From an uncultured Bacteroidota bacterium (GTDB lineage: Bacteria; Bacteroidota; Bacteroidia; AKYH767-A; JABDAW01), in NCBI GenBank assembly GCA_903911135.1, contig CAIWCG010000178.1, forward strand, positions 1 to 47,707: DNA of 47,707 nucleotides. The letters run 5' to 3'. The position numbers and the translations under genes were made by a program. A model generated the notes under the pieces. The model saw only the letters and a list, made by a program, of their open reading frames with translations. It made no database searches and was not told where the DNA came from. Within the stretch, counting starts at the first letter, position 1. Every line of letters begins with the position of its first letter. Below are positions 5,542 through 47,707 of the stretch, one piece after another.

Positions 5542-6453
5542 ATGAAAAAAACGAACCTCAACATCTGCTTCACCTTTGCGCTGCTGCTTATTTCAGCCGT
5601 TTCCTTCTTAGGCTGCGAAAAAGACATTACGGTTGATTTTCCACCCGCTCCCGATTTGATTGTGGTGGAAGGCCATATAGAACCTGGCCAATATGCCTAT
5701 GTGCATCTTACCAAAAACTCCTCCTATTTCGCCCCTACCGATACGGCTACGCTTTTGAGTTATGTCATCGGCAATGCCACCGTCCTCGTATCGGATGGCG
5801 TGGATTACGACACCTTGAAATTCACCATCGATTTCCATAATTTCCCCTATTTTCCGTTTGTTTATAAAGGCAGCAAAATCATCGGTCAGGCCAATCATTT
5901 CTATACCTTGAAGGTGATGGCGAATGGGCAAACGGTTACTTCCTACACCTCCATCCCTACCCCTGTTAAGCCCGACAGTGCGTGGTTTAGGGTGCAGGGA
6001 AACCTCGACAGTCTGGGTTTTGTATGGATTCATTTCAAAGACCCCGACACCACGGGCAACTGCTACCGTTTCATGACCAAACGTATCAGCCATAGACCCG
6101 ACGGTTCAGTTAAAGACATCGATTTCTTGACCAACATAAACTCCGTTTTCGACGACAAGATATTCAATGGCACCAGTCCCGATTTCAGTTTCAATCGAGG
6201 CCATGTGCCCCATGATACCGCCATGGATTCGCACAATGTGGAGGCAGGTTTTTTCAAGAAAGGCGACACCATCATCTTCAAATACATGAACATTGACCGG
6301 CCACATTTCGATTTTTGGAGCACCGAAGGCATCGCTGCCGAAAGCAGTGGCAATCCTTTTGCCGCTCCCATCATGGTGAAGAGCAACATAGTGGGCGGTT
6401 TGGGCATCTGGGGTGGTTATGGCGCTGCCTACGATACGGTGATTGCGAAATAA
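5542..6453 (+). CDS. DUF4249-family lipoprotein paired with the TonB receptor
   Basis: The ORF track opens at 5461, inside the previous gene. The ATG at 5542 gives MKKTNLNICF with a lipoprotein signal whose Cys is in FLGCEKD, so I use it (303 residues). The mature part starts with the DUF4249 pattern (ITVDFPPAPDLIVVEGHIEPG) and continues as a beta-rich protein. Members of this family sit beside TonB receptors in Bacteroidota and are presumed surface or periplasmic partners; their biochemical role is not established. It directly follows the receptor stop and is probably cotranscribed with it. GC content is higher than in the preceding gene. Confidence 0.85.
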   Translation: MKKTNLNICFTFALLLISAVSFLGCEKDITVDFPPAPDLIVVEGHIEPGQYAYVHLTKNSSYFAPTDTATLLSYVIGNATVLVSDGVDYDTLKFTIDFHNFPYFPFVYKGSKIIGQANHFYTLKVMANGQTVTSYTSIPTPVKPDSAWFRVQGNLDSLGFVWIHFKDPDTTGNCYRFMTKRISHRPDGSVKDIDFLTNINSVFDDKIFNGTSPDFSFNRGHVPHDTAMDSHNVEAGFFKKGDTIIFKYMNIDRPHFDFWSTEGIAAESSGNPFAAPIMVKSNIVGGLGIWGGYGAAYDTVIAK

Positions 6454-6644
6454 ATCAATACCAATCTTCATCAAGATTTGGATGATTCATTCATGATGGC
6501 TCGCAAAAGGCGAAGCTATTATTAATGATTCATCAATGATTTAGAACAATCGTTTAATCCTTTCAATTTATAAATTGCTGATTTCTTGTCAAATAAATGA
6601 TAATTAATCTGCTCTTTTTCATTTGCAATGACTTTAAAGCACCA

Positions 6645-6960
6645 CGTCGCGTCGTTGGGACCCAATGCCGCTTCGTTAGGTCCTTACGCCGTTTCGTTGG
6701 GTCCTTACGCCGTTTCGTTGGGTCCTTACGCCGTTTCGTTGGGTCCTTACGCCGCTTCGTTGGGTCCTTACGCCGCTTCGTTAGGTCCCTACGCCGCTTC
6801 GTTGGGTCCTTACGCCGCTTCGTTGGGTCCTTACGCCGTTTCGTTGGGTCCTTACGCCGCTTCGTTGGGTCCCAAGGTCGTGTCGTTGGGTCCCAAGGTC
6901 GTGTAATTGGGTCCCAAGGTCGTGTCGTTGGGTTCCAAGGTCTCGACCTTGGGTCCCAAC
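6645..6960. repeat. tandem array, 21-bp unit, ~15 copies
   Basis: Units of 21 bases centred on CGTTGGGTCCTTACGCCG(C/T)TT repeat through the region. In the last units the TTACGCCG half is replaced by CAAGGTCGT. All six frames are open because 21 is divisible by three, giving several nested ORFs on both strands (92-178 residues) that I reject as genes. The right end closes with a near-palindrome (GGGTTCCAAGGT / ACCTTGGGTCCC). The array lies between the DUF4249 gene and purL and is much richer in G and C than its flanks. Confidence 0.93.
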
Positions 6961-7075
6961 ATCTCTCCGCCGAGTTATTTTGCCCCGCCAAAAAAGGCTT
7001 TTCAAGTATAAAACTCCTGAAATCGGGTCTTTTTGGTTTTTGAGTGGATTTTTGGGGTTTTATGAAAAAAGATGA

Positions 7076-7206
7076 TTCGAGGCGGCTGCCATCAATCATA
7101 GCCCCGATAGAAGCGGCAGCCCGCTGCTTTCGTCAGGAAATGGGGGTGCAGCGGCTACAGCGGATAGCGGGACGAAGATGATACGAGAACTGCACATAGG
7201 CTTCAA
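7076..7206 (+). repeat. dispersed ~130-bp REP-like element, copy 1
   Basis: It starts TTCGAGGCGGCTGCC and ends CATAGGCTTC. The core is AGCCCCGATAG(A)AGCGGCAG then CCCGCTGC, a spacer, and GCAGCGGCTACAGCGGATAG. AGCCCGCTGC and GCAGCGGCT pair as an imperfect hairpin. This is the most diverged copy. It lies 116 bases after the 21-bp array and 90 bases before the purL promoter. Confidence 0.85.
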
Positions 7207-7295
7207 AAAATAATCATGATGGTGATTTTAGTTATTTAGGCTAAAATGTTGGCTTGATTATCTTGGAATTACCATCTTACATCTCCCCAATTTAT

Positions 7296-7304
7296 TAGTT
7301 TTGC
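7296..7304 (+). promoter_or_regulatory. -7 box for purL
   Basis: TAGTTTTGC fits TAnnTTTG and lies 28 bases before the purL ATG. Confidence 0.55.
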
Positions 7305-7332
7305 AGACGAAGAAAAATAATAAATTACGATA

Positions 7333-9549
7333 ATGACAACGACTGAAGCACTTCCCACCTTTGAAACTGCAAAGAAATTAGGCCTCATAGAAGAGGAATT
7401 CGAACGGATAAAAGAGATTCTTGGCCGCAGCCCCAATTTCACCGAATTGAGCATCTTTTCGGTGATGTGGTCAGAGCATTGTTCCTATAAAAACTCCATC
7501 ACCTGGCTGAAAACCTTGCCAAAGAAAGGGCCGCATTTGCTGGTGGAAGCCGGCGAAGAAAACGCGGGATTGGTAGGTATCGGCGAAGGATTGGCGTGTG
7601 CCTTCAAGATAGAATCGCACAACCACCCATCGGCCTTGGAACCCTATCAGGGAGCAGCCACCGGGGTGGGAGGAATAAACAGGGACATCTTCACGATGGG
7701 GGCTCGCCCGATAGCGCAATTGAACTCCTTGCGATTCGGAAACCTCAACTCCGAAAAGACCAAGTGGCTACTTAAAGGTGTGGTGAAAGGCATCGGCGAT
7801 TATGGCAATGCCTTCGGAATACCTACGGTGGGTGGAGAGGTTTTCTTCGACGATTGCTATAACATCAACCCATTGGTAAACGCCATGTCGGTGGGCATAG
7901 TAGAGGTGGGCAAGACGGTTTCGGCGATATCTTATGGTGTAGGCAATCCGGTTTATATCGTGGGTTCGGCTACCGGCAAGGATGGAATTCATGGAGCCAC
8001 ATTCGCTTCCGAAGATATCAGTGCTGCCTCATCTGAAAAACTACCTTCGGTGCAGGTGGGCGATCCATTTCAAGAGAAATTATTGTTGGAGGCCACCTTG
8101 GAAGTGATTCAAACAGGTGCCGTCATTGGAATGCAGGACATGGGTGCTGCCGGCATCATCTGCTCCAACTCGGAAATGTCGGCCAAAGGCAAGCATGGCA
8201 TGAGGATAGATTTGGACAAGGTGCCTACTCGCCAGGCCAACATGCAGCCATTCGAGATACTGCTTTCCGAGTCGCAAGAGCGGATGCTGATAGTGGTGGA
8301 GAAAGGCAAGGAAGCATTGGTGGAGAAGGTTTTCGACAAGTGGGATTTGAATTGTGCCATCATCGGAGAGGTGATAGAAGGCGACCATTTGAGGTATTAC
8401 ATGCATGGCGAACTGGTGGCTGATGTGCCTGCCGATGTGCTGGTATTGGGAGGTGGAGCACCGGTATATACCAGGGAATACAAGGAGCCTGCATACATTG
8501 CTTTGAACAAGGCTTTCGACATGAATAAAGTCAAGGTGCCAAAAGATTTGGTGGCCGTTGCCAAGCACTTGACCACGCACCCGAACATCGCTTCGAAGCG
8601 TTGGGTTTATAACCAATACGATTCGATGGTAGGCACCGTGAACATGACTACCAACAGTCCATCTGATGCAGCCATCATCAACATAAAAGGAACCAATAAA
8701 GCGCTTGCACTGACGGTAGATTGCAACGCAAGATATGTGCAGGCAGACCCCGAAACCGGCTGTGCCATAGCGGTAGCCGAAGCGGCAAGAAACATCGTAT
8801 GTGCAGGTGGTGAGCCTTCTGCCATAACTAACTGCTTGAACTTTGGCAATCCTTACAATCAGGAGGTCTATTGGCAATTCGTGCATGCGATAAAGGGCAT
8901 GGGCAAGGCCTGCGAAATGTTCCAGACACCGGTAACGGGTGGCAATGTGAGCTTCTATAATCAATCGAATGATGAAGGCCCGGTGTTCCCGACGCCTACC
9001 ATAGGCATGCTGGGATTATTGGACAAGGAAAACAGGATGACGCTGGATTTCAAGAAGGCGGGAGACCACATCTTTTTGATTGGAGAATCGAGGAACGACA
9101 TCGCTTCATCGGAGTATCTTTATTCCTTTCATAATGTAAAGAATTCTCCTGCACCCTACTTCAATCTGGATGAGGAATATGACCTGCACCAAGTGGTGAA
9201 AGGCTTGATATCAAACAAGCTCGTAGCCTCTGCACACGATGTTTCTGATGGCGGATTATACATCGCGCTATTGGAATCTGGCATGCCGAACAATCTTGGT
9301 TTCGAGATAGATACCGACGATGAAATCCGCAAGGATGCCTTCCTTTTCGGTGAGGCACAAGGCCGTGTGGTGGTATCTGTTTCGGCAGAGAAGCTGGATG
9401 AATTCATTGTGTTTTTGGCTGAGTCGGATGTAGAATTTACCAACCTCGGAATCGTTACCTCTGGCGACATGCTGATTGATTCCGCTTCGTTCGGGGCGAT
9501 AGCTGATGCCAAGGATTTGTATGACAACGCCATCGAAAGAAGTTTATAA
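7333..9549 (+). CDS. purL: phosphoribosylformylglycinamidine synthase, small PurL type
   Basis: It catalyses the ATP- and glutamine-dependent conversion of FGAR to FGAM in de novo purine synthesis. At 738 residues it is the small, Bacillus-like PurL that works with separate PurS and PurQ subunits, not the ~1300-residue enterobacterial form. Visible landmarks are [10 protein letters not shown] (~48-57, catalytic His region), [21 protein letters not shown] (~95-115, ATP and metal binding), a second AIRS-like half with [15 protein letters not shown] (~502-516), and AHDVSDGGL near the C-terminus. The two-fold repeated architecture is intact. It stands alone with its own promoter; purS and purQ are not in the window. 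Confidence 0.97.
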
Positions 9550-9609
9550 AACGGACTTGGTTAACAAATAAAGCTGTTCTCATTTATTGATAATGGAGAA
9601 GCTATTTGT

Positions 9610-9861
9610 CTGTTCTTGAAGCATCGTTGGGTGTTTTTGGGTAGATAGAGTCTGTTGTTGGGACATGAGGTTCTGTTTTTGGCATATCTTGGGATGTACT
9701 TAAGACAATAGGTGTTGTTGCTGCAACTTGATGCTCTGTTCTTGAGAAATGTGTGGGTGTTCATACAAAATCAAGCTCTGTTCTTGGGAGATGATGGGCT
9801 GTTGTTGGGAAATGAGTGTCTGTTGCCGAAATAGGGTGGTCTGTTGTGGAAATGATGGTGT
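9610..9861. repeat. degenerate tandem array, 21-bp unit, 12 blocks
   Basis: Cutting from 9610 in 21-base blocks gives twelve blocks, most opening with CTGTT or GTGTT (for example CTGTTCTTGGGAGATGATGG, CTGTTGTTGGGAAATGAGTG, CTGTTGCCGAAATAGGGTGG). Sequence identity between blocks is low, yet there is no insertion or deletion across 252 bases. The reverse-strand ORFs at 9561-9764 and 9700-9936 are by-products of the three-fold period. Confidence 0.85.
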
Positions 9862-10016: not shown

Positions 10017-10047
10017 GGTTGATTTATATGGGGAAGGCGAATAATTA
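10017..10047 (+). repeat. 30-bp dispersed motif, copy A
   Basis: GGTTGATTTATATGGGGAAG and on through GCGAATAATT matches 13350-13379 with one mismatch in 30 bases. Both copies lie ~105-120 bases before the start codon of a forward gene. Confidence 0.7.
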
Positions 10048-13349: not shown

Positions 13350-13379
13350 GGTTGATTTATATGGGCAAGGCGAATAATT
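13350..13379 (+). repeat. 30-bp dispersed motif, copy B
   Basis: It matches 10017-10046 with one substitution (GGGCAAGG versus GGGGAAGG). It is located 105 bases before the ATG at 13485. Confidence 0.7.
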
Positions 13380-24581: not shown

Positions 24582-24892
24582 GACGTGACTTCCTTTCGTA
24601 TCAAAAACAGGATATCATAAACCATTCTTTGCTTGACCGTTAAGCCTTCTACATGCAGAAAATTCGCTTCCATAATTAGGTATCTTTTTTAACCCTGCAT
24701 AATTACATTAATTGCGGGAGGTTTAGGTAATAATCTTGAATCTGTATCCATTTATTCCAGATGTGACTCATAGTCCGTTGTGAGATGAGTAAGGTGGGGG
24801 TGATTTTTATTAATTAAATTATGTGTAATTTTCCGCACCAGAATTTGAAGACCTCTTTGAATAAATAGATATTGATAAATGTTTAATTGAGA
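24582..24892. other. divergent intergenic region
   Basis: About 310 bases between the protease-like gene (reverse) and the NUDIX gene (forward). AT content rises towards the NUDIX start. No clear TAnnTTTG box, palindrome or terminator is seen. Confidence 0.4.
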
Positions 24893-25279
24893 ATGATAAA
24901 TGTCGCATGTGCCATCATATTAAAGGATAATAAGTTTTTAGTTACTCAAAGAAGTGAATATATGAATCTGCCTTTAAAATGGGAATTCCCAGGAGGCAAA
25001 ATTGAGAAGGAAGAAACGGCTGAAGTTTGTTTGATGAGGGAACTAAAAGAGGAATTAAATATTGAAGTTGCCATTATTAAAAAACTCAACAATAATATTC
25101 ATGACTATGGTAATGTGGTGATAAATTTAATTCCATTTGTTGTGGAGTACATTTTAGGTGAAATAGTTTTATCCGAACATGCCTCATATCAATTACTGGA
25201 AAAAGATCAATTGCATTATTTGGATTGGGCAGAAGCTGATTTACCAATTTTAAAAGAATTAATTAACTCAAATATATGA
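24893..25279 (+). CDS. NUDIX (deoxy)nucleoside triphosphate pyrophosphohydrolase (MutT-like)
   Basis: The track begins at TTG 24887; I prefer the ATG at 24893 (128 residues, MINVACAIIL). The NUDIX box is complete: GGKIEKEETAEVCLMRELKE followed by ELNI, matching GX5EX7REUXEEXGU with Asn in place of the last Gly. The start (INVACAIILKDNKFLVTQRS) is the MutT/8-oxo-dGTP diphosphatase type. It hydrolyses a nucleoside triphosphate to monophosphate and pyrophosphate. Its stop overlaps the start of the helicase gene by four bases (ATGA), so the two are made together. A MutT-like enzyme beside a PLD-helicase is known from defence-type islands, so the real substrate may be a signal or a modified nucleotide. 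Confidence 0.92.
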   Translation: MINVACAIILKDNKFLVTQRSEYMNLPLKWEFPGGKIEKEETAEVCLMRELKEELNIEVAIIKKLNNNIHDYGNVVINLIPFVVEYILGEIVLSEHASYQLLEKDQLHYLDWAEADLPILKELINSNI

Positions 25280-28200
25280 ACCAAGGAATTTATGAGGAGT
25301 TAGTAACACAATTAGTTGCTACAAAATTAAATGAAATTGATAGGTCCAAATTTTATATCAAAGAAGTTAAAATTGATAAAGAAGAAGCCTCAAATATCCT
25401 TTCACAGCATTTGTCAAAAACAATAAAATATGCTCTATCAATTATTAAAGGTGACGACATAATAGAGCGTCAAATTGAAATTGCAAATAAAATTATCAAA
25501 TTATTAAAAGAGGAATTAAACCAAGTAGATTTTGATGATGATTTGGTAAGCATCGAAGGGAAAATACTAAAAGCGGTTTTCGAAAAAACAGATGCACATT
25601 TTTCCGATTTGGATTTGCATCTTAAAGAAATTACACCTTATACTAGACTAACCCATAGTGAATTATTTACAGGAGGGAACGTTGGCTTATCATTAGAAAG
25701 TGAATTAAAAAAAGAAATCCTATCATCAAACAGGATAGATTTATTGGTTTCATTTATAAAATGGAAGGGAGTTGTAATCCTTAAAAGTGAATTGGAAGAG
25801 TTTACAAAAAGAGGAGGGAAATTACGAGTTATTACAACGACATATATGGGTGCTTCGGATTACAAAGCTATCCTTGAATTATCAAAACTTGAAAATACCG
25901 AAGTGAAAATATCTTATAACAATGGAAATGAAAGGTTGCATGCAAAAGCATATTTATTTCATAGAAATACAGGTTATCATACAGGATATATAGGCTCGTC
26001 AAACTTTTCAAGGTCTGCCCTTACAGATGGATTGGAATGGAACATTAAAATAACAACCAATGAAGTAAGCCATATTATTGATAAGTTTCAAAAAACATTT
26101 GATGCTTATTGGTTGAATAAGGAGTTCGAATTATTTGATGAAATAAAAGATTCAGAAAAACTATTAGATGCACTTAAACAAAGTAAACTTTCAAAAAGTC
26201 AAAACAACACACTGGCATTTTTTGATTTGACACCACACCAATATCAAAAGGAAATTTTAGAAAAGTTAGACGTTGAAAGAAACGTACATGGAAGATATAG
26301 AAACTTAATAGTTGCTGCAACTGGAATGGGAAAAACCATTATTTCTGCCTTCGATTACAAGAATTTTCGACAAAAAAACAAATCATCAAAATTGTTATTT
26401 GTTGCACATCGAAAAGAAATTCTAACTCAATCAATGGCAACCTTTCAAGGAGTTTTAAAAGATAATAATTTTGGAGAATTATGGGTTGATGGTATTGTTC
26501 CTTCAAATTATGAATTTGTTTTCGCATCGGTTCAAACACTAAATAATAAGATTAAAGATTTATCACTTTCTCCAGAGTATTATGACTATATTATAATTGA
26601 TGAAGTGCATCATATTAAAGCTGCAAGTTATAGACCAATTATAAACTATTTTAAACCTAAAATACTTCTTGGATTAACAGCTACTCCAGAAAGGATGGAT
26701 GGAGGCGATATACTAGAAGATTTCTGCAATAAAATTGCTGCAGAAATCAGATTGCCTGAAGCATTAAATGGAAAACATTTATGCCCTTTTCAATATTTCG
26801 GAATATCTGATAGTATTGATTTATCAAATGTAGGTTGGGAGAAAGGCAGATATGTTGCAAGTGAATTAACAAAGTTGTATACATCAAATGATAGAAGGGT
26901 TAATGAAATCATTTTCAACTTAAATAAATATACTAAAGATATTAACGATTTAAGAGCACTATGCTTTTGCGTATCTATTGAACATGCGAAGTTTATGGCA
27001 GAAAAGTTTTCATTAGCTGGTTTAAAAGCAAATTGTTTGACTTCAGAAAACGATGTGGAACGCGAAGCTTTAAGAAAACAATTACAAATTAAAGAAATCA
27101 ACTATTTATTTGTTGTTGACATTTTTAATGAAGGAGTTGACATTCCTGAAATTGATACGGTTTTATTTTTACGCCCCACTGAAAGTCTAACCGTTTTCTT
27201 GCAACAACTTGGACGAGGATTAAGATTAGCTGAAGGCAAAGAAAACTTAACTGTTTTAGACTTTGTTGGGAATGCAAGACCAGAATACAATTTTGAGAAT
27301 AAATTTAGAGCATTAATTGGCAAAACAACGACCACAGTTCAGAAAGAGTTAGAGGATAATTTTCCTCATTTGCCATTGGGTTGTTCAATAATTTTAGAAC
27401 AAAAAGCAAAAGAAATAATATTGAAGAATATTATTTCTGCTACTACATTTAATAGAAACCAAATTATACAAAAAATTAGAAACTTTGAAAGCCAAACAAC
27501 CTTACCTCTCACTCTATATAATTTTTCTTCATTCTATAATATACCAATTCAAACAATTTACAGTAAATATAGAAAAGATAGTTGGAATAGGCTTCTGCAA
27601 TTAGCCGGTAAAATTGAAGCTTTTGAAAGCACTAATGAAAATCAAATTGTTTCAGCCATTCGTAATAAATGGCTTTCTACAAATTCATCTAGCTATTTCA
27701 ATTTTCTATTGAGAATTGCAAAGCAAAACTTTATTGTTGAATTAGAAAACTTTACAGAAGACGAAAAAACTATGCTTCTAATGCTTCATTATGATGTTTG
27801 GCAGAATGCAGGAGGTTTTCCAACATTAGAAGAAAGCATAAAGGAAATTGGGAGGAATAGCATTTTAGTTCAAGAGATCATTGAAGTATTACAAATTTTA
27901 TGTGATAAAATTAATTTCAAAGAAATTCATATTGAATTACCATTCAGCCAACCATTAAAACTACATGCGAGATATACAAGAGACCAAATATTAACAGCTT
28001 TCAAATTGAATACATTTGAGAATAAATCTTCTAATCGAGAAGGAGTTGCAGAAAATAAGAAAATAAATGTTGAAATGCTTTTTATTGACCTTATCAAATC
28101 AGAAGAAGATTATTCACCTACAACTATGTATGAAGACTATGCAATAAGCGATTTGCTGTTTCATTGGCAAAGCCAAAACTCCGCAAGGCCAGACAAAGGA

Positions 28201-28425
28201 AAAGGATTGTCCTATATTAACCATCTTGAGAATAATAAAATAATCCTGTTATTTGTTCGAGAAAAAGCAAATGATGAATTTGGAAGCACTATGGGTTATG
28301 TATTTATTGGAAATGCTAAAATTAAAGATTATCATGGATCAAAACCTATGAGTATAAATTGGGAATTAAATGAACCTATGCCACCTTATCTTTGGAAAGA
28401 TTCTGCGAAATTAGCTATAGGTTAA
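25276..28425 (+). CDS. PLD-nuclease / SF2 helicase / DUF3427 fusion protein
   Basis: The 1049-residue protein falls into three parts. Residues ~120-300 are a phospholipase-D-like nuclease domain with HAKAYLFH and GSSNFSRSAL; the HxK is present and the usual Asp is His, as I recall for this subfamily. Residues ~315-660 are a superfamily II helicase with Walker A (ATGMGKT), DEVH, LTATPER and QQLGRGLR. Residues ~700-1049 are a DUF3427-type C-terminus. Such proteins likely move along DNA and cut it, and similar fusions are listed among genes enriched in defence islands. It is coupled to the NUDIX gene. The strong AT richness contrasts with the housekeeping genes in the window and suggests transfer. 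All motifs look intact. Confidence 0.92.
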   Translation: MNQGIYEELVTQLVATKLNEIDRSKFYIKEVKIDKEEASNILSQHLSKTIKYALSIIKGDDIIERQIEIANKIIKLLKEELNQVDFDDDLVSIEGKILKAVFEKTDAHFSDLDLHLKEITPYTRLTHSELFTGGNVGLSLESELKKEILSSNRIDLLVSFIKWKGVVILKSELEEFTKRGGKLRVITTTYMGASDYKAILELSKLENTEVKISYNNGNERLHAKAYLFHRNTGYHTGYIGSSNFSRSALTDGLEWNIKITTNEVSHIIDKFQKTFDAYWLNKEFELFDEIKDSEKLLDALKQSKLSKSQNNTLAFFDLTPHQYQKEILEKLDVERNVHGRYRNLIVAATGMGKTIISAFDYKNFRQKNKSSKLLFVAHRKEILTQSMATFQGVLKDNNFGELWVDGIVPSNYEFVFASVQTLNNKIKDLSLSPEYYDYIIIDEVHHIKAASYRPIINYFKPKILLGLTATPERMDGGDILEDFCNKIAAEIRLPEALNGKHLCPFQYFGISDSIDLSNVGWEKGRYVASELTKLYTSNDRRVNEIIFNLNKYTKDINDLRALCFCVSIEHAKFMAEKFSLAGLKANCLTSENDVEREALRKQLQIKEINYLFVVDIFNEGVDIPEIDTVLFLRPTESLTVFLQQLGRGLRLAEGKENLTVLDFVGNARPEYNFENKFRALIGKTTTTVQKELEDNFPHLPLGCSIILEQKAKEIILKNIISATTFNRNQIIQKIRNFESQTTLPLTLYNFSSFYNIPIQTIYSKYRKDSWNRLLQLAGKIEAFESTNENQIVSAIRNKWLSTNSSSYFNFLLRIAKQNFIVELENFTEDEKTMLLMLHYDVWQNAGGFPTLEESIKEIGRNSILVQEIIEVLQILCDKINFKEIHIELPFSQPLKLHARYTRDQILTAFKLNTFENKSSNREGVAENKKINVEMLFIDLIKSEEDYSPTTMYEDYAISDLLFHWQSQNSARPDKGKGLSYINHLENNKIILLFVREKANDEFGSTMGYVFIGNAKIKDYHGSKPMSINWELNEPMPPYLWKDSAKLAIG

Positions 28426-28490: not shown

Positions 28491-28553
28491 ACCATTCCAC
28501 AACCTTCTTTTATTATCCTATGTTTGCATAGCTGAAAAGGGAGTAGGCATTTT
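28491..28553 (+). promoter_or_regulatory. shared promoter/operator/leader, copy 1
   Basis: The core is TTATTATCCTATGTTTGCAT followed by AGCTGAAAAGGGAGTAGGC. TATGTTTG fits the -7 box. It is embedded in the inverted repeat CTATG-TTTG-CATAG, which could be an operator. The same ~55 bases occur before the next two genes. Confidence 0.75.
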
Positions 28554-28580
28554 ACGATTATAAAAATAAACAAATAGAAT

Positions 28581-29186
28581 ATGCCTAAATGTATTGAATG
28601 CAGCAACATGACAACTTATGAAAATTGGCTTTGTTATTCTTGCTATCAAAAGAAACAAAAAAGTCATGTTTACACAGATAATCATCCTAGTGGGCTAAGT
28701 TACAATGATTGGATATTTCATTATAACATGATTAAAGGAAGGATTGCGGAAACTTTGATTCAGGAATTATTCCTACAACTGAAATTTAATGTGTATCGTT
28801 ATGGCATGGAAAATACCATTCCAGGAATAATGGAACTGCTTAGACATGATAATTCTTCTGTTGCAAGTTCCATTAGAAGCATGCCTGATTTTGTGATTCA
28901 AAATTCAACATCAAAAGAGATACGACTTTTAGAAGTGAAGTTTCGAGCAAATGGCTCTTTCAAAATCAATGAGTTGATAAAAAACTATCCTTGGGAGGAT
29001 GCGTATATAATCTTAGTTTCGAAGGTGAGCATCAAATGCATTACCTATAAGGAACTGAAAGAAGGAGGCGAGATAACTGCAACATCTGACAATCATCTTT
29101 ATGACCGCATTGAATTCAGTAACGATAAAGCGGTAATAATTGAATTTTGCAACTTTGCTACGAGATTCTTTGCTTGTGTAAATTAA
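28581..29186 (+). CDS. zinc-ribbon plus PD-(D/E)XK nuclease-like protein
   Basis: The 201 residues begin with a four-cysteine zinc ribbon (CIECSNMTTYENWLCYSCYQK). Next comes a helix with GRIAETLIQELFLQLKFNVY (Glu of motif I), MPDFVIQN (Asp) and IRLLEVKFRANG (Glu-x-Lys), then a lysine-rich helix. That order (E...PD...ExK) is the PD-(D/E)XK nuclease core, similar to Holliday-junction resolvase or restriction-type domains. The role is inferred as a DNA- or RNA-cutting or -binding protein, probably targeted by the zinc ribbon. It lies 155 bases after the helicase gene, with its own promoter copy, so it is near but not co-transcribed with that unit by default. Confidence 0.75.
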   Translation: MPKCIECSNMTTYENWLCYSCYQKKQKSHVYTDNHPSGLSYNDWIFHYNMIKGRIAETLIQELFLQLKFNVYRYGMENTIPGIMELLRHDNSSVASSIRSMPDFVIQNSTSKEIRLLEVKFRANGSFKINELIKNYPWEDAYIILVSKVSIKCITYKELKEGGEITATSDNHLYDRIEFSNDKAVIIEFCNFATRFFACVN

Positions 29187-29253
29187 CACTGAACCTTTAT
29201 AGATTTTGCCTATGGATTATGGATTAAAATTTCTTGAGCCTTTGAAAAGTGAG

Positions 29254-29313
29254 CATTCATTAACCTTCTTTTATTATCCTATGTTTGCATAGCTGAAAAT
29301 GAAGTAGGCATTT
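29254..29313 (+). promoter_or_regulatory. shared promoter/operator/leader, copy 2
   Basis: Nearly identical to copy 1 over ~50 bases: ATTATCCTATGTTTGCATAG, then CTGAAAATGAAGTAGGC. The start codon of the TPR gene follows 15 bases later. Confidence 0.75.
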
Positions 29314-29327
29314 ATATATAGAATGAA

Positions 29328-30596
29328 ATGAAAAAATTTAAAAGCGAAGAAGCAATAAGAAAAGCAATAGAGAAAAATCCTATGGATGCTGAATTATATT
29401 TTCAGCTTGGGGTATGGATATTTGAGAACGGCAAAGCACTGGACATAAATTATAGGCATAGAGCCATGGATGAATTCGATAAGGCCAAAGCCATCAATCC
29501 ACAAGAGGGGAAGTATCATTTTCATTATGGGCTATGTTCGATTGATATGGGAAACCCGGAAGCTACCACGAATGCGAGTTTCAATAAGGCCATCCATCTT
29601 GGATATAAGGTGGAGGAATGCAAGAGGCTGATGGCGGAAGCAAAAACAAAATATGATGCGGAGTATAAAAAGGCGCATGAGGACTATTTGGATAGGCTGG
29701 AAAAGGAAGTTGACGGCGCACATAAATTTGGTCAACTGGGTTCTCATTATTACTGGAAAGATAAAAAGAAGGCGATTGCTTTATTGGAGAGGGCCTTGGA
29801 ATTTGATCCTAATGATGGCAACGCAAATGTTTTGTTGGGCAGATATTATGGCGAACAGGGGGATATGGAAAAAGCATTGGAACATTTCAAAAGGGCGGGG
29901 GCTGATTCTCTTAAATATGGTTCTGGCTATCGTGATAACCACTATGATGAAATGGCCAGCATTTATGAGAAGAAGGAGGATTGGGAAAATGCCTTGATAT
30001 GGCGAAAGAAGGGGTATGAATTGTATCCTGATGAAATTTGGAATGCGCAGCAATATGGCATTCATTTATATAAATTTGAAAAGCAGGAAGAGGCTTTGGC
30101 TGTTTTCATGAAAATTCTTGAGATGAATCCTGAAGGCAGCAATACGTTTGTTTATACCCATCTTGCCTCGTACCACTCGAACAAAGGAGACATAGAAACC
30201 ACTTTGAAATACCTGCATGAGGGTTTGAAGTACAATGCTCAAAATTGGTTCTTTCATTTTAATCTGGGGCATATCCATGAATATACGAAGCAATATGATT
30301 TGGCAGAAAAGTTTTTTCTGAATGCTGTAGTTTATCGGTTGGATGATGATGCAGCCTATATTCGACTTGGGAAAATGAATTTGAGGGAAGATTATTTTGA
30401 CATAAAGAAAAGCAGGGATTATTTTGTGAAAGCTTTGGAAATAAATTCTTTAAATATAATTGCACATGAAAAGTTGAGTGAGATCTATATGGAACTAAAT
30501 GAACCAACAAAAGCCAAATATCATCAATCGAAAACGCAAGAGCTGCGAATTCAGGAATTATACCCTAACCCCAACAGCAAGGATTTTCTTGCCTAA
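29328..30596 (+). CDS. tetratricopeptide-repeat protein
   Basis: The 422 residues consist of about nine helical TPR-type repeats from end to end. Clear ones are AMDEFDKAKAINPQEGKYHF (~45), IALLERALEFDPNDGNANVL (~150), ALEHFKRAGADSLKYG, ENALIWRKKGYELYPDE, EALAVFMKILEMNPEGSN and SRDYFVKALEINSLNIIAHE. There is no signal peptide, membrane segment or catalytic domain. TPR arrays bind peptides or hold complexes together. Codon use is less AT-rich than in the helicase. It carries the same promoter/leader as both neighbours, so it is probably expressed under the same condition and may be a scaffold for them; the link is inference. Confidence 0.88.
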   Translation: MKKFKSEEAIRKAIEKNPMDAELYFQLGVWIFENGKALDINYRHRAMDEFDKAKAINPQEGKYHFHYGLCSIDMGNPEATTNASFNKAIHLGYKVEECKRLMAEAKTKYDAEYKKAHEDYLDRLEKEVDGAHKFGQLGSHYYWKDKKKAIALLERALEFDPNDGNANVLLGRYYGEQGDMEKALEHFKRAGADSLKYGSGYRDNHYDEMASIYEKKEDWENALIWRKKGYELYPDEIWNAQQYGIHLYKFEKQEEALAVFMKILEMNPEGSNTFVYTHLASYHSNKGDIETTLKYLHEGLKYNAQNWFFHFNLGHIHEYTKQYDLAEKFFLNAVVYRLDDDAAYIRLGKMNLREDYFDIKKSRDYFVKALEINSLNIIAHEKLSEIYMELNEPTKAKYHQSKTQELRIQELYPNPNSKDFLA

Positions 30597-30610
30597 TATG
30601 GCGAACACGC

Positions 30611-30664
30611 CACCATTCTCCACATATCCTATCTTTGCATAGCTGAAAAGGGGGTAGGCGTTTG
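30611..30664 (+). promoter_or_regulatory. shared promoter/operator/leader, copy 3
   Basis: The core is ATATCCTATCTTTGCATAGC, then TGAAAAGGGGGTAGGC. It is the most diverged of the three (TATCTTTG box, CTAT/ATAG arms). It starts 15 bases after the stop of the TPR gene and 30 bases before the next ATG. Confidence 0.72.
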
Positions 30665-30693: not shown

Positions 30694-32463
30694 ATGGCTA
30701 AAAGATATACCATTGATGACATGCAGGAGTATGCCAAAGATAAGGGGGGACTGTGCATGAGCAAGGAATACGTCGATTCGATCTCTCCCTTGAAATGGCG
30801 ATGTGAAAAGGGCCATACCTGGGATGCCGACTTTGAAATCATCAGGCAGGGTGGGTGGTGCCCGCAGTGCTTGAAGAAAGAACACGACATTATCGAACGA
30901 TTTGAGAAGATAAAAGCCATTGCCATTGCAAAAGGAGGAAAATGTCTATCCACGGAATTCATTAACATGAAGGAAAAATTGGATTTTGAATGTGCTGAAG
31001 GGCATAGATGGAGTGTTGCCCCAGGTGGAATATTAAATAATAATCAATGGTGCAGCAAATGTGCATATAAAAAATTGGGGATGAATTCAAGGGACCCAAT
31101 TGAGATGTTTCAAAAAATAGCAGCCGATCATGGAGGGAAATTACTATCTCTAACCTATTCAGGAAGTAGAGATAAATTGCTTTGGGAATGCAAGGAAGGT
31201 CATCAATGGTATGCCAATGCATTTTGTATAAAGAGAATTAAAACATGGTGTCCTGAATGTTCAGGAAAACTCCCTCTAACTATTGAGGATATGAAAAATG
31301 ATGCTGCCAAGCATGGAGGTGAATGCCTTTCAACCGAGTATCTTGGTGTTAGCAAACAATTGAAATGGAAATGCTCGGAAGGGCATGTTTGGATGGCAAA
31401 ACCAAATAATATCCGTTCAGGTAACTGGTGCGACATTTGTGCACATAAAAGAATTGGAGACTTTCATAGAGACAATATAGAGACCTTTCATGAAATTGCG
31501 AAAAAACGGGGAGGAAAATGCCTATCAACAACGTATGTTAGGAATCTATACAAATTGGAATTTGAATGCTCGGAAGGTCATAGATGGAAAGCAGCACCCA
31601 TTGGAATAAAAAACATGAATAACTGGTGCCCAAAATGTGCTCGCGTTTCTTGTGGCATAAAAAACAGGGAAGATATAGCCATATATCATAAAATTGCCAA
31701 AGAACGTGGAGGGCGATGCTTGGAATTTACTTATAAAGGAAACCGTGTAATTATCAAACTTGAATGTGCGGAAGGACATAGTTGGACTATAGAAGGTCAT
31801 GCAATCAAACAAGGGAACTGGTGTTTCAAGTGTGCCCATAAACGAATTGCTGCAAAACAATTTGACACCATCGAAACATTTCATGCCATAGCAAAGGAAA
31901 ATGGGGGTAAAGTTCTGTCGAAGGAATATGTCAGTAGTCTTACAAAAATGGAATTTCAATGTTCAGAGGGACATGTTTTTTGGGCTTCGGCATCCAACAT
32001 TAAAAATAATCGTCTTTGGTGTATCATTTGCAATAAAATAAAGAGGGATAAACCAAAGAATAAAATTGAAAGATTCAAACAATTGGCGATTGAAAAAGGT
32101 GGCAAGTGTTTATCGGAGGTATGTTATAATACCCATGATAAACTGGATTGGGAATGTGCAGAAGGGCATAGATGGACAGTATCAGGGAAAGGCATAGTAT
32201 GCGGAAACTGGTGCAAGAAATGTGCTAGTAAATCAAATGCCATGAAACAATTTGACACCATCGAAAATATTCAGGAAATAGCGAAGAAGCATGGAGGAAA
32301 ATGCTTGTCGGAAGTTTATGTAAACAACACAACAAAGATGAAGTTTCAATGTTCGGAAGGGCATATTTGGATGTCTACTGCAGGCAATATTAAAAACCAT
32401 CCTACTTGGTGTGTTGTATGCAATAAGAATAACAAGAAAAAATCATTAAAACCAAAGATTTGA
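30694..32463 (+). CDS. protein built of nine treble-clef/zinc-ribbon repeats
   Basis: The whole 589-residue chain is nine copies of a ~62-residue module. Each has a short helix ending in GGKCLS..Y, a strand with C-x-EGH-x-W, and a closing W-C-x-x-C. The Cys/His plus CxxC set should bind one zinc per module. Two modules have lost the Cys in the GGKCLS motif (GGKLLS, GGKVLS). Modules of this kind also occur as single or tandem zinc-ribbons attached to nucleases; here there is no enzymatic domain at all. It is likely a nucleic-acid-binding array. A Lys-rich tail (NNKKKSLKPKI) ends it. It shares promoter and leader with the two preceding genes. I know similar repeat proteins but not a proven function. 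Confidence 0.8.
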   Translation: MAKRYTIDDMQEYAKDKGGLCMSKEYVDSISPLKWRCEKGHTWDADFEIIRQGGWCPQCLKKEHDIIERFEKIKAIAIAKGGKCLSTEFINMKEKLDFECAEGHRWSVAPGGILNNNQWCSKCAYKKLGMNSRDPIEMFQKIAADHGGKLLSLTYSGSRDKLLWECKEGHQWYANAFCIKRIKTWCPECSGKLPLTIEDMKNDAAKHGGECLSTEYLGVSKQLKWKCSEGHVWMAKPNNIRSGNWCDICAHKRIGDFHRDNIETFHEIAKKRGGKCLSTTYVRNLYKLEFECSEGHRWKAAPIGIKNMNNWCPKCARVSCGIKNREDIAIYHKIAKERGGRCLEFTYKGNRVIIKLECAEGHSWTIEGHAIKQGNWCFKCAHKRIAAKQFDTIETFHAIAKENGGKVLSKEYVSSLTKMEFQCSEGHVFWASASNIKNNRLWCIICNKIKRDKPKNKIERFKQLAIEKGGKCLSEVCYNTHDKLDWECAEGHRWTVSGKGIVCGNWCKKCASKSNAMKQFDTIENIQEIAKKHGGKCLSEVYVNNTTKMKFQCSEGHIWMSTAGNIKNHPTWCVVCNKNNKKKSLKPKI

Positions 32464-32532: not shown

Positions 32533-32657
32533 TTCGAAGCAACCTGCCGTCAATCAGCCCCGATAGTAGCGGCAGCCCGCTGCTTTGTATCGGCAATGAG
32601 GATGCAGCGGATAGCGGGACTGGCCATGATACGAGAAGAAACCATAGGCTCCTTATT
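32533..32657 (+). repeat. dispersed ~130-bp REP-like element, copy 2
   Basis: It begins TTCGAAGCAACCTGCCGTCA and ends CATAGGCTCCTTATT. It lacks nine bases (CTACAGCGG) of the core seen in the other copies, as expected from slippage between AGCGG repeats. It lies between the 3' ends of the zinc-ribbon gene and the kinase gene. Confidence 0.9.
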
Positions 32658-35832: not shown

Positions 35833-35959
35833 TTTGCTTTAGACCGTATCGCGTTTTTAAGCTTAAAAAATAGTAATTTAGCTTAAATCCCTTCTAATGG
35901 AAAGAAGTAATGTTGTCTTGAAGTCAAAATCTGTTTCAACACACTTTGACTCCGTTGTG

Positions 35960-36235
35960 ACACATTTTGGTTCTGTTCGAACAAACTCCGGTTTCGTTCG
36001 AACAAACTCCAGGTTTGTTGCCAACGAAACCAAGTTTCAAGGGAAGAAACGGCATTTTGTTCTCCTGAAAACCATTTTCGTTCGAACGAAACCCAACCTT
36101 GTTCGAACGAAACCAAAATGTGTCGCGACATACTTTGACGTTTCGAAGCTACATTTTGAGTTCGTTTGAACAGAAATCGCTTTCGTTCGAACGGAATCCG
36201 TTTGCGTTCGAACAGAGTTGAACTTCATTGGAAGG
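35960..36235. repeat. degenerate 21-bp array with phased GTTCGAAC palindromes
   Basis: The perfect palindrome GTTCGAAC starts at 35975, 35996, 36080, 36101, 36185 and 36206. The steps are 21, 84, 21, 84, 21, all multiples of 21, and the pair recurs every 105 bases. Intervening units keep the pattern loosely (GTTGCCAAC at 36017). Units run like GTTCGAACAAACTCCGGTTTC. The ORFs called on both strands reflect the three-fold period. The array lies in the divergent region before the DEAD-box helicase gene. Confidence 0.88.
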
Positions 36236-40896: not shown

Positions 40897-41064
40897 GATG
40901 CAGGCCCGAATAAGCGGCTCCTTGTCATTTTATTAGATCTCTTTCAAGTTGAGTTCTATTTTTAAGTTTCATAAGGCCCTATAGTTCTTTTGATATGTGT
41001 TATTAGGCTTTAATTAAGAATGTAGTTCAATCAAAACCAGGTTAATTAATTGGATTAGCAGTTT

Positions 41065-41260
41065 GGAAAATGACTTTCCAAGGTGGGAAAATGATTTTCC
41101 AAGGTGGGAAAATGACTTTCCAAGGTGGGAAAATGACTTTCCAAGGTGGGAAAACGATTTTCCAAGGTGGGAAAATGACTTTCCAAGGTGGGAAAATGAC
41201 TTTCCAAGGTGGGAAAACGACTTTCCCAGTAGGAAAAACGACTTTCCAATCTATGAAATG
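41065..41260. repeat. tandem array, 21-bp unit, ~9 copies
   Basis: The unit is GGAAAATGACTTTCCAAGGT plus G. It is highly conserved, with C/T changes at one position and drift in the last two units. Each unit contains GGAAA...TTTCC, a small hairpin. ORFs in three or more frames (63-68 residues) reflect the period. It lies in the gap after the MuiA gene and 86 bases before REP-like copy 3. Confidence 0.93.
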
Positions 41261-41345
41261 AGTTTATAAGGCTGTTAAAATGATAAGACCTGTTAGAATA
41301 AAGTTCTTTTTTACTTGAGTTTTGGATGTTTAGGCTGAAAGCTTA

Positions 41346-41476
41346 TTCGAAGCAAGCTGCCGTCAAAGCATAGCCCCGATAGTAGCGGCAGCCCGCTGCT
41401 TTGTGTCGGCAATGGGAAGGCAGCGGCTACAGCGGATAGCGGGACGCAGATGGGACGAGAAGCTGCCATAGGCTTC
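41346..41476 (+). repeat. dispersed ~130-bp REP-like element, copy 3
   Basis: It begins TTCGAAGCAAGCTGCCGTCA and ends CATAGGCTTC. The core AGCCCCGATAGTAGCGGCAG and the arms AGCCCGCTGC / GCAGCGGCT are intact. It is placed between the 21-bp array and the terminator of the Omp28 operon. Confidence 0.92.
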
Positions 41477-44787: not shown

Positions 44788-44920
44788 AATAAGGAGCCTA
44801 TGTTCGCTTCTCGTCCCATCTACGTCCCGCTATCCGCTGTAGCCGCTGCTCCCCATTTCCGACACCAAGCAGCGGGCTGCCGCTACTATCGGGGCTAGAT
44901 TTGACGGCAGGTTGCTCGAA
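44788..44920 (-). repeat. dispersed ~130-bp REP-like element, copy 4
   Basis: Read on the reverse strand it runs from TTCGAGCAACCTGCCGTCAA to CATAGGCTCCTTATT. The core and both arms are intact. It faces copy 5 in inverted orientation across the 21-bp array at 45001-45093. Confidence 0.93.
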
Positions 44921-45000: not shown

Positions 45001-45093
45001 CGATAGGACGGAGGTTGCGGATGATAAGACGGAGGTTGCGGATGATAGGACGGAGGTTGCGGACGATAGGACGGACGATGCGGACGATAGGTA
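45001..45093. repeat. tandem array, 21-bp unit, 4.4 copies
   Basis: Blocks of exactly 21 start at 45001, 45022, 45043 and 45064, each (C/T)GATAGGACGGAGGTTGCGG plus A with few changes, and a partial block ends at 45093. It lies precisely between two inverted copies of the dispersed element. Confidence 0.92.
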
Positions 45094-45128
45094 GAAACGG
45101 CGGTTTTCCATTTTCTGTTGAAAGTTGG

Positions 45129-45262
45129 TTCGAGGCAACCTGCCGTCAAATCTAGCCCCGATAGTAGCGGCAGCCCGCTGCTTTTTTAGGATTTAGGGAT
45201 GCAGCGGCTACAGCGGATAGCGGGACGTAGATGATACGAGAAGTGAACATAGGCTCCTTATT
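45129..45262 (+). repeat. dispersed ~130-bp REP-like element, copy 5
   Basis: It begins TTCGAGGCAACCTGCCGTCA and ends CATAGGCTCCTTATT. The spacer between the arms differs from other copies (TTTTTTAGGATTTAGGGAT). An AT-rich ATTATAAATTATGAAT follows directly, similar to the sequence next to copy 6. Confidence 0.93.
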
Positions 45263-47588: not shown

Positions 47589-47707
47589 AAGGAGCCTAAG
47601 GCAAGTTCTCGTATCATGGCCAGTCCCGCTATCCGCTGTAGCCGCTGCATCCCCATTGCCGACACAAAGCAGCGGGCTGCCGCTACTATCGGGGCTAGGC
47701 TTTGACG
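47589..47707 (-). repeat. dispersed ~130-bp REP-like element, copy 6 (cut by window edge)
   Basis: On the reverse strand it reads from CGTCAAAGCCTAGCCCCGAT at the window edge to the GGCTCCTT end. Core and arms are intact. An AT-rich stretch with ATTATGAATTATAAATGG flanks it, as at copy 5. Confidence 0.92.

Follow-up and report, generated by a model that had tools for sequence, protein, structure and literature searches.

The window, by which we mean the whole 47,707-nt stretch of DNA that was analysed, carries three successive genes on one strand, each preceded by a copy of the same short, promoter-like cassette (Table 1). The gene products had been described in the original prediction as unrelated zinc-ribbon nuclease-like, TPR and nine-fold zinc-ribbon proteins, and this description was confirmed, with no mutual protein similarity being found. 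The first product matches no Pfam family. It was found to comprise an N-terminal zinc ribbon followed by PD and ExK motifs that are invariant in 20 homologues, and the best matches of its AlphaFold model (pLDDT 82) were PD-(D/E)xK nucleases (archaeal Hjc, I-Ssp6803I and SPARDA), with E values no better than 0.005. When the nuclease profile was searched against PDB sequences, only ribosomal protein S4 came up, with E values of at least 0.015, and this was taken as chance. The second product has relatives of 26 to 30% identity in one genome of the genus. For the third, nine CxxGH units could be read off the sequence, each DUF4379 unit being a probable treble-clef zinc finger; literature searches for DUF4379 gave nothing of use. 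The G+C content is 34% for the nuclease gene and 38.5 and 38.7% for the other two, the latter values being near that of the backbone.

Table 1. Features of the cassette cluster and its upstream neighbours (positions in the window).
Feature	Position	Strand	Basis or remarks
NUDIX gene and type IV restriction enzyme (PLD-helicase-DUF3427), without cassette	24887..28425	+	PADLOC, Pfam
Cassette copy 1	28493..28552	+	-7 box TATGTTTG at 28519-28526, then predicted leader; serves 28581-29186
Zinc ribbon and PD-(D/E)xK nuclease-like protein, 201 aa	28581..29186	+	motifs, model
Cassette copy 2	29254..29313	+	-7 box at 29280-29287; serves 29328-30596
Tetratricopeptide-repeat protein, 422 aa	29328..30596	+	TPR_17 E=4e-19, other TPR models
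Cassette copy 3	30604..30663	+	-7 box TATCTTTG at 30630-30637; serves 30694-32463; diverged upstream part
Nine DUF4379 units, 589 aa	30694..32463	+	PF14311 E=1e-15

Homologues of the nuclease were located at 27 loci in Bacteroidota, Methanosarcina and DPANN archaea. An HsdR-group protein was present at 10 of these loci and an HsdM-group protein at 8, and representatives matched EcoEI_R_C, N6_Mtase and HsdM_N. The homologues adjoin type I restriction genes at L098, L100, L106, L097, L103, L107, L114 and L046, Methanosarcina included. The PD-(D/E)xK protein is a candidate accessory restriction factor. The homologues from Salinimicrobium and Salegentibacter have a conserved leader of their own, TATTTAC...CCCTACCG (L098, L100 and L106, upstream of position 6001); it is present in one copy per genome, does not resemble the cassette of the window, and was set aside.

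The surroundings of the three genes resemble a defence island in that a type IV restriction enzyme, a NUDIX protein (PDC-S07) and a restriction-associated nuclease stand together, and clustered restriction or nuclease genes are what characterises such islands. The NUDIX/type IV pair, which lies directly upstream of the cassette genes and has a G+C content of 30%, was recognised by PADLOC with E values of 7e-225 (mREase_IV) and 3e-47 (PDC-S07). A difference is that none of the three cassette genes matches any PADLOC 2.0.0 model. Similarity to a contig of the sister genome G002 starts only at about 32.7 kb of the window. The region is most likely a defence or accessory island assembled from several sources, and its function is probably anti-phage defence. 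Several repeats were also noted. Six Flavo-1 RNA elements (RF01705) lie in the window, at 7096-7178, 32552-32625, 41368-41450, 44819-44900, 45150-45231 and 47618-47700, one of them directly behind the third cassette gene; with dozens more in the same genome, Flavo-1 behaves like a dispersed repeat. Tandem repeats with a 21-nt period, whose sequence varies by place, were observed at 6581-7000, 9609-9845, 35941-36234, 41018-41311 and 45002-45106, mostly between genes, and also in sister genomes (L088 and L091 of G002). A nearly identical 30-nt repeat, GGTTGATTTATATGGGSAAGGCGAATAATT, stands upstream of two unrelated genes at 10017-10046 and 13350-13379.

The near-identical repeat claimed to precede the three start codons was verified. 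Over 60 nt, copies 2 and 3 were 92% and 75% identical to copy 1, respectively (sequence comparison and repeat finder). The 22-nt core CCTATSTTTGCATAGCTGAAAA has exactly three occurrences in the window; 100 dinucleotide shuffles yielded none. Behind the promoter half, the leader follows the consensus TAGCTGAAAAnnRRGTAGGCRTTT, of which the genome holds three copies. The copies end 28, 14 and 30 nt before the ATGs at 28581, 29328 and 30694, and the -7 box, which is intact and at a suitable distance from the ATG in all three, ends 54, 40 and 56 nt before them. Beyond the cassette a weaker similarity fades towards the start codon, with AAACAAATA present in copies 1 and 3. Between copies 1 and 2, conservation is even (18/21 positions upstream versus 37/39 in the -7 box and leader, p = 0.33). 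Copy 3 is alike from TATCC onwards only, with 36/39 matching positions in the -7 box and leader versus 9/21 upstream (Fisher p = 5e-5), and this unevenness calls for one of two explanations, a copied unit that was shorter or selection acting on the leader.

The front half of the cassette (TCCTAnnTTTGCA) reads as an ordinary Bacteroidota sigma-A promoter, its activity being predicted. In Flavobacterium psychrophilum the sigma-A consensus is TAnnTTTG at -12 to -5 (PMC9723704), and a TAnnTTTG motif with a -33 element has been reported for Bacteroides (PMC7366714). The TATSTTTG box, the T-rich stretch upstream of it and the distance to the ATG all agree with such primary-sigma promoters, and the context TCCTAnnTTTGCA is common in the genome. 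With up to two mismatches, TTATCCTAnnTTTGCA gave 129 matches in the same genome versus 39 for the reversed control, and a similar excess of promoter context, often as TTTTCCTAnnTTTGCA, was seen in other genomes of the family. Within the window, 7 of 8 TAnnTTTGCA sites have a gene or tRNA starting within 75 nt. What sets the cassette apart from an ordinary promoter is the stretch of about 25 nt behind the box, which three neighbouring genes have in common and which was found nowhere else. If the box is placed at -12 to -5, transcription is predicted to start about 5 nt behind it, within or just after CATAG, and the transcripts would then have CTGAAAAnnRRGTAGGCRTTT as their 5' end.

The -7 box had further been claimed to lie inside an operator, the inverted repeat CTATG-TTTG-CATAG. 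This repeat is perfect in copies 1 and 2, but copy 3 reads CTATC and has lost the loop-closing pair. Among 482 TAnnTTTG sites of the same genome, taken from 0.37 Mb, one is surrounded by an equally long palindrome, about the number expected by chance. Because of the lost pair and the chance-level frequency, the palindrome is no separate signal, and the operator is unsupported. Folding of the element with its upstream region, as RNA and as DNA, gave no structure better than those of shuffled sequences (z from -1.0 to +1.0).

The reach of the full element was found to be narrow. The 3.8-Mb genome to which the window belongs, which is 98% complete, has no fourth copy. A search of 41 other genomes of the order that allowed up to three mismatches found none, and about 85,000 species genomes were without an exact match. 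In viral contigs an exact pattern with 22 fixed bases was absent; two 20-mer matches there lay within or at the end of coding sequence and were taken as chance. A BLAST search of copy 1 against plasmids and phages gave weak partial matches only. When a profile of the three copies was run over the 42 genomes, only these three were significant, at 64 to 70 bits, with the next best match at 17.9; of the weak matches inspected, most were in coding sequence and the others had promoter context alone. By the refuting test that the original prediction had set, the complete element thus proved to be neither a strong housekeeping promoter nor the mark of a dispersed regulon, being confined to one cluster.

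Sharing of upstream sequence between neighbouring genes was also examined at other DUF4379 loci by comparing 150-nt upstream regions in 26 stretches fetched for DUF4379 versus about 1.5 Mb of control sequence. In a genome of the same genus (G001:C37), the 79 nt that end at the ATG of a DUF4379 gene are 96% identical to those before an unrelated 359-aa gene; a 168-aa gene follows this DUF4379 gene after a gap of only 9 nt, which might mean that DUF4379 was inserted between a cassette and its former gene. In another family (G494:C114), 53 nt before a DUF4379 gene, including a -7 box, recur at 96% identity before an unrelated 303-aa gene, and part of this sequence also precedes a DUF559 nuclease gene. 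A third cluster (G450:C56, L203) has 25 to 28 nt common to the junctions of three unrelated genes, with GAAATAAAAATTGTGGAGG at each of the three (7100-8660). This repeat appears to resemble the coding end ...EIKIVEG of some DNA methyltransferases and is perhaps a remnant of a coding end. Sharing among related genes was seen as well. Three paralogous DUF4379 genes of G001:C46 have 148 to 150 nt of upstream sequence in common at 82 to 88% identity; at this locus (L087, 6600-9428) the three tandem genes each have a long hairpin, CCTTCTATTGCATGACCCCGAAAAAGGGTCATATCATAGAAGG, about 110 nt before the ATG. Elsewhere in the genome of the window (contig C2), two 172-aa genes whose proteins are 30% identical are 90% identical over 86 nt upstream. 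The cassette sequence differs between DUF4379 clusters, and where DUF4379 loci lie on plasmids or in viral contigs, the DUF4379 gene was not seen to share its promoter. With one filter applied to all, 8 of 1204 control genes showed upstream sharing, in some cases apparently because of coding tails, versus 2 of 24 DUF4379 genes with the window excluded (p = 0.015), or 3 of 24 (p = 0.001) when G001:C37, whose extra matches are generic promoter, was restored. The enrichment at DUF4379 loci is modest and was noticed after the fact.

The original prediction had interpreted the three copies as a regulon under one regulator and, perhaps, as the outcome of cassette-wise assembly. That each gene has its own promoter-leader copy was upheld, while a regulon in the usual sense was not, as the search of the genome and the order found no cassette outside three adjacent genes, the promoter half is plain promoter context, copy 3 does not preserve the palindrome and no gene for a regulator was identified. 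The presence of only three copies, with none elsewhere in the order, argues against a genome-wide regulon in particular. A dedicated small regulon, in which the leader TAGCTGAAAAnnRRGTAGGC is bound by a protein, possibly one made by the island itself (even the DUF4379 array), or by a small RNA, and the three genes are switched together, was judged rather unlikely. The high conservation of the core and leader of copy 3 is what selection on the leader would give, and the pair of genes on contig C2, with promoter regions far more alike than the proteins, points the same way. Against it stand the confinement of the cassette to the cluster, an imperfect palindrome of chance-level frequency, the lack of a stable fold, the failure to identify a known regulator gene in the cluster, and the different cassettes of other DUF4379 clusters. 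The preserved leader of copy 3 leaves some limited room for a regulator confined to this one cluster. It would be highly speculative to propose that the treble-clef arrays of DUF4379 bind nucleic acid in a cluster-specific way, each recognising the promoter-leader cassette of its own cluster; if true, a cassette copied before a newly acquired gene would place that gene under the private control of the cluster.

The arrangement could also be read as a series of mobile gene cassettes inserted head to tail at a recombination site, as in an integron. Unrelated genes of differing G+C content on one strand, with one short repeat at each 5' end, do recall an integron gene-cassette array, and the 25 to 28 nt repeated at three gene junctions of G450:C56 would fit. 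This reading is nevertheless very unlikely, as the repeat in the island holds a promoter and lies at promoter distance, the array lacks a closing fourth copy, neither an attC-like structure nor any other fold exceeded shuffles, and no integrase was present among the 20 window proteins scanned. Neutral remains of duplication, of no significance for expression, would account for the even conservation of copies 1 and 2, and tandem duplicates are frequent in these genomes. The unevenness of copy 3 is not expected from plain decay of a single block, however, and the -7 boxes of all three copies, intact and suitably spaced from an ATG, likewise speak against this explanation, which was considered distinctly improbable.

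The arrangement is best explained, and with fair probability, by local copying of a sigma-A promoter together with the first 25 nt or so of its transcript, such that each of the three unrelated genes has a start of its own. Absence of the full element elsewhere implies that the copying was local. The TATSTTTG box would recruit the primary sigma factor, and transcription would begin a few bases further on, inside CATAG or directly behind it, so that the three mRNAs would have a nearly identical 5' leader and, probably, similar expression. Shared control of the three genes is plausible. By the likely route, tandem duplication, illegitimate recombination or promoter capture would have added or exchanged genes behind an existing promoter, and each gene joining the island would receive a working start. 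In other bacteria, promoter capture via tandem duplication has been documented experimentally and activates acquired genes (PMC11111574). The likeness is that an acquired gene is made active by a nearby promoter that has been copied or joined to it; the present case differs in that three unrelated genes have compact copies of promoter plus leader and the copying events themselves were not seen, there being no junction or intermediate that shows them. Cassette-wise assembly gains weight because related genomes hold clusters with other cassettes.

Since it is found nowhere else, the cassette has the look of a control element that was copied locally and not of one site in a regulatory network spanning the genome. 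The nuclease deserves attention in its own right: in Bacteroidota and Methanosarcina it is found repeatedly next to type I restriction genes, and the copy in the window has no Pfam family. The cluster as a whole offers a clear natural example of unrelated accessory genes standing behind copies of one promoter and leader. Judging by the clusters of related genomes, which have other cassettes, DUF4379 islands may gain or swap genes time and again behind a control element that stays fixed. In that case, shared leaders could flag co-expressed and perhaps co-functioning parts of uncharacterised defence clusters, the candidates here being the nuclease, the TPR protein and the zinc-finger array.
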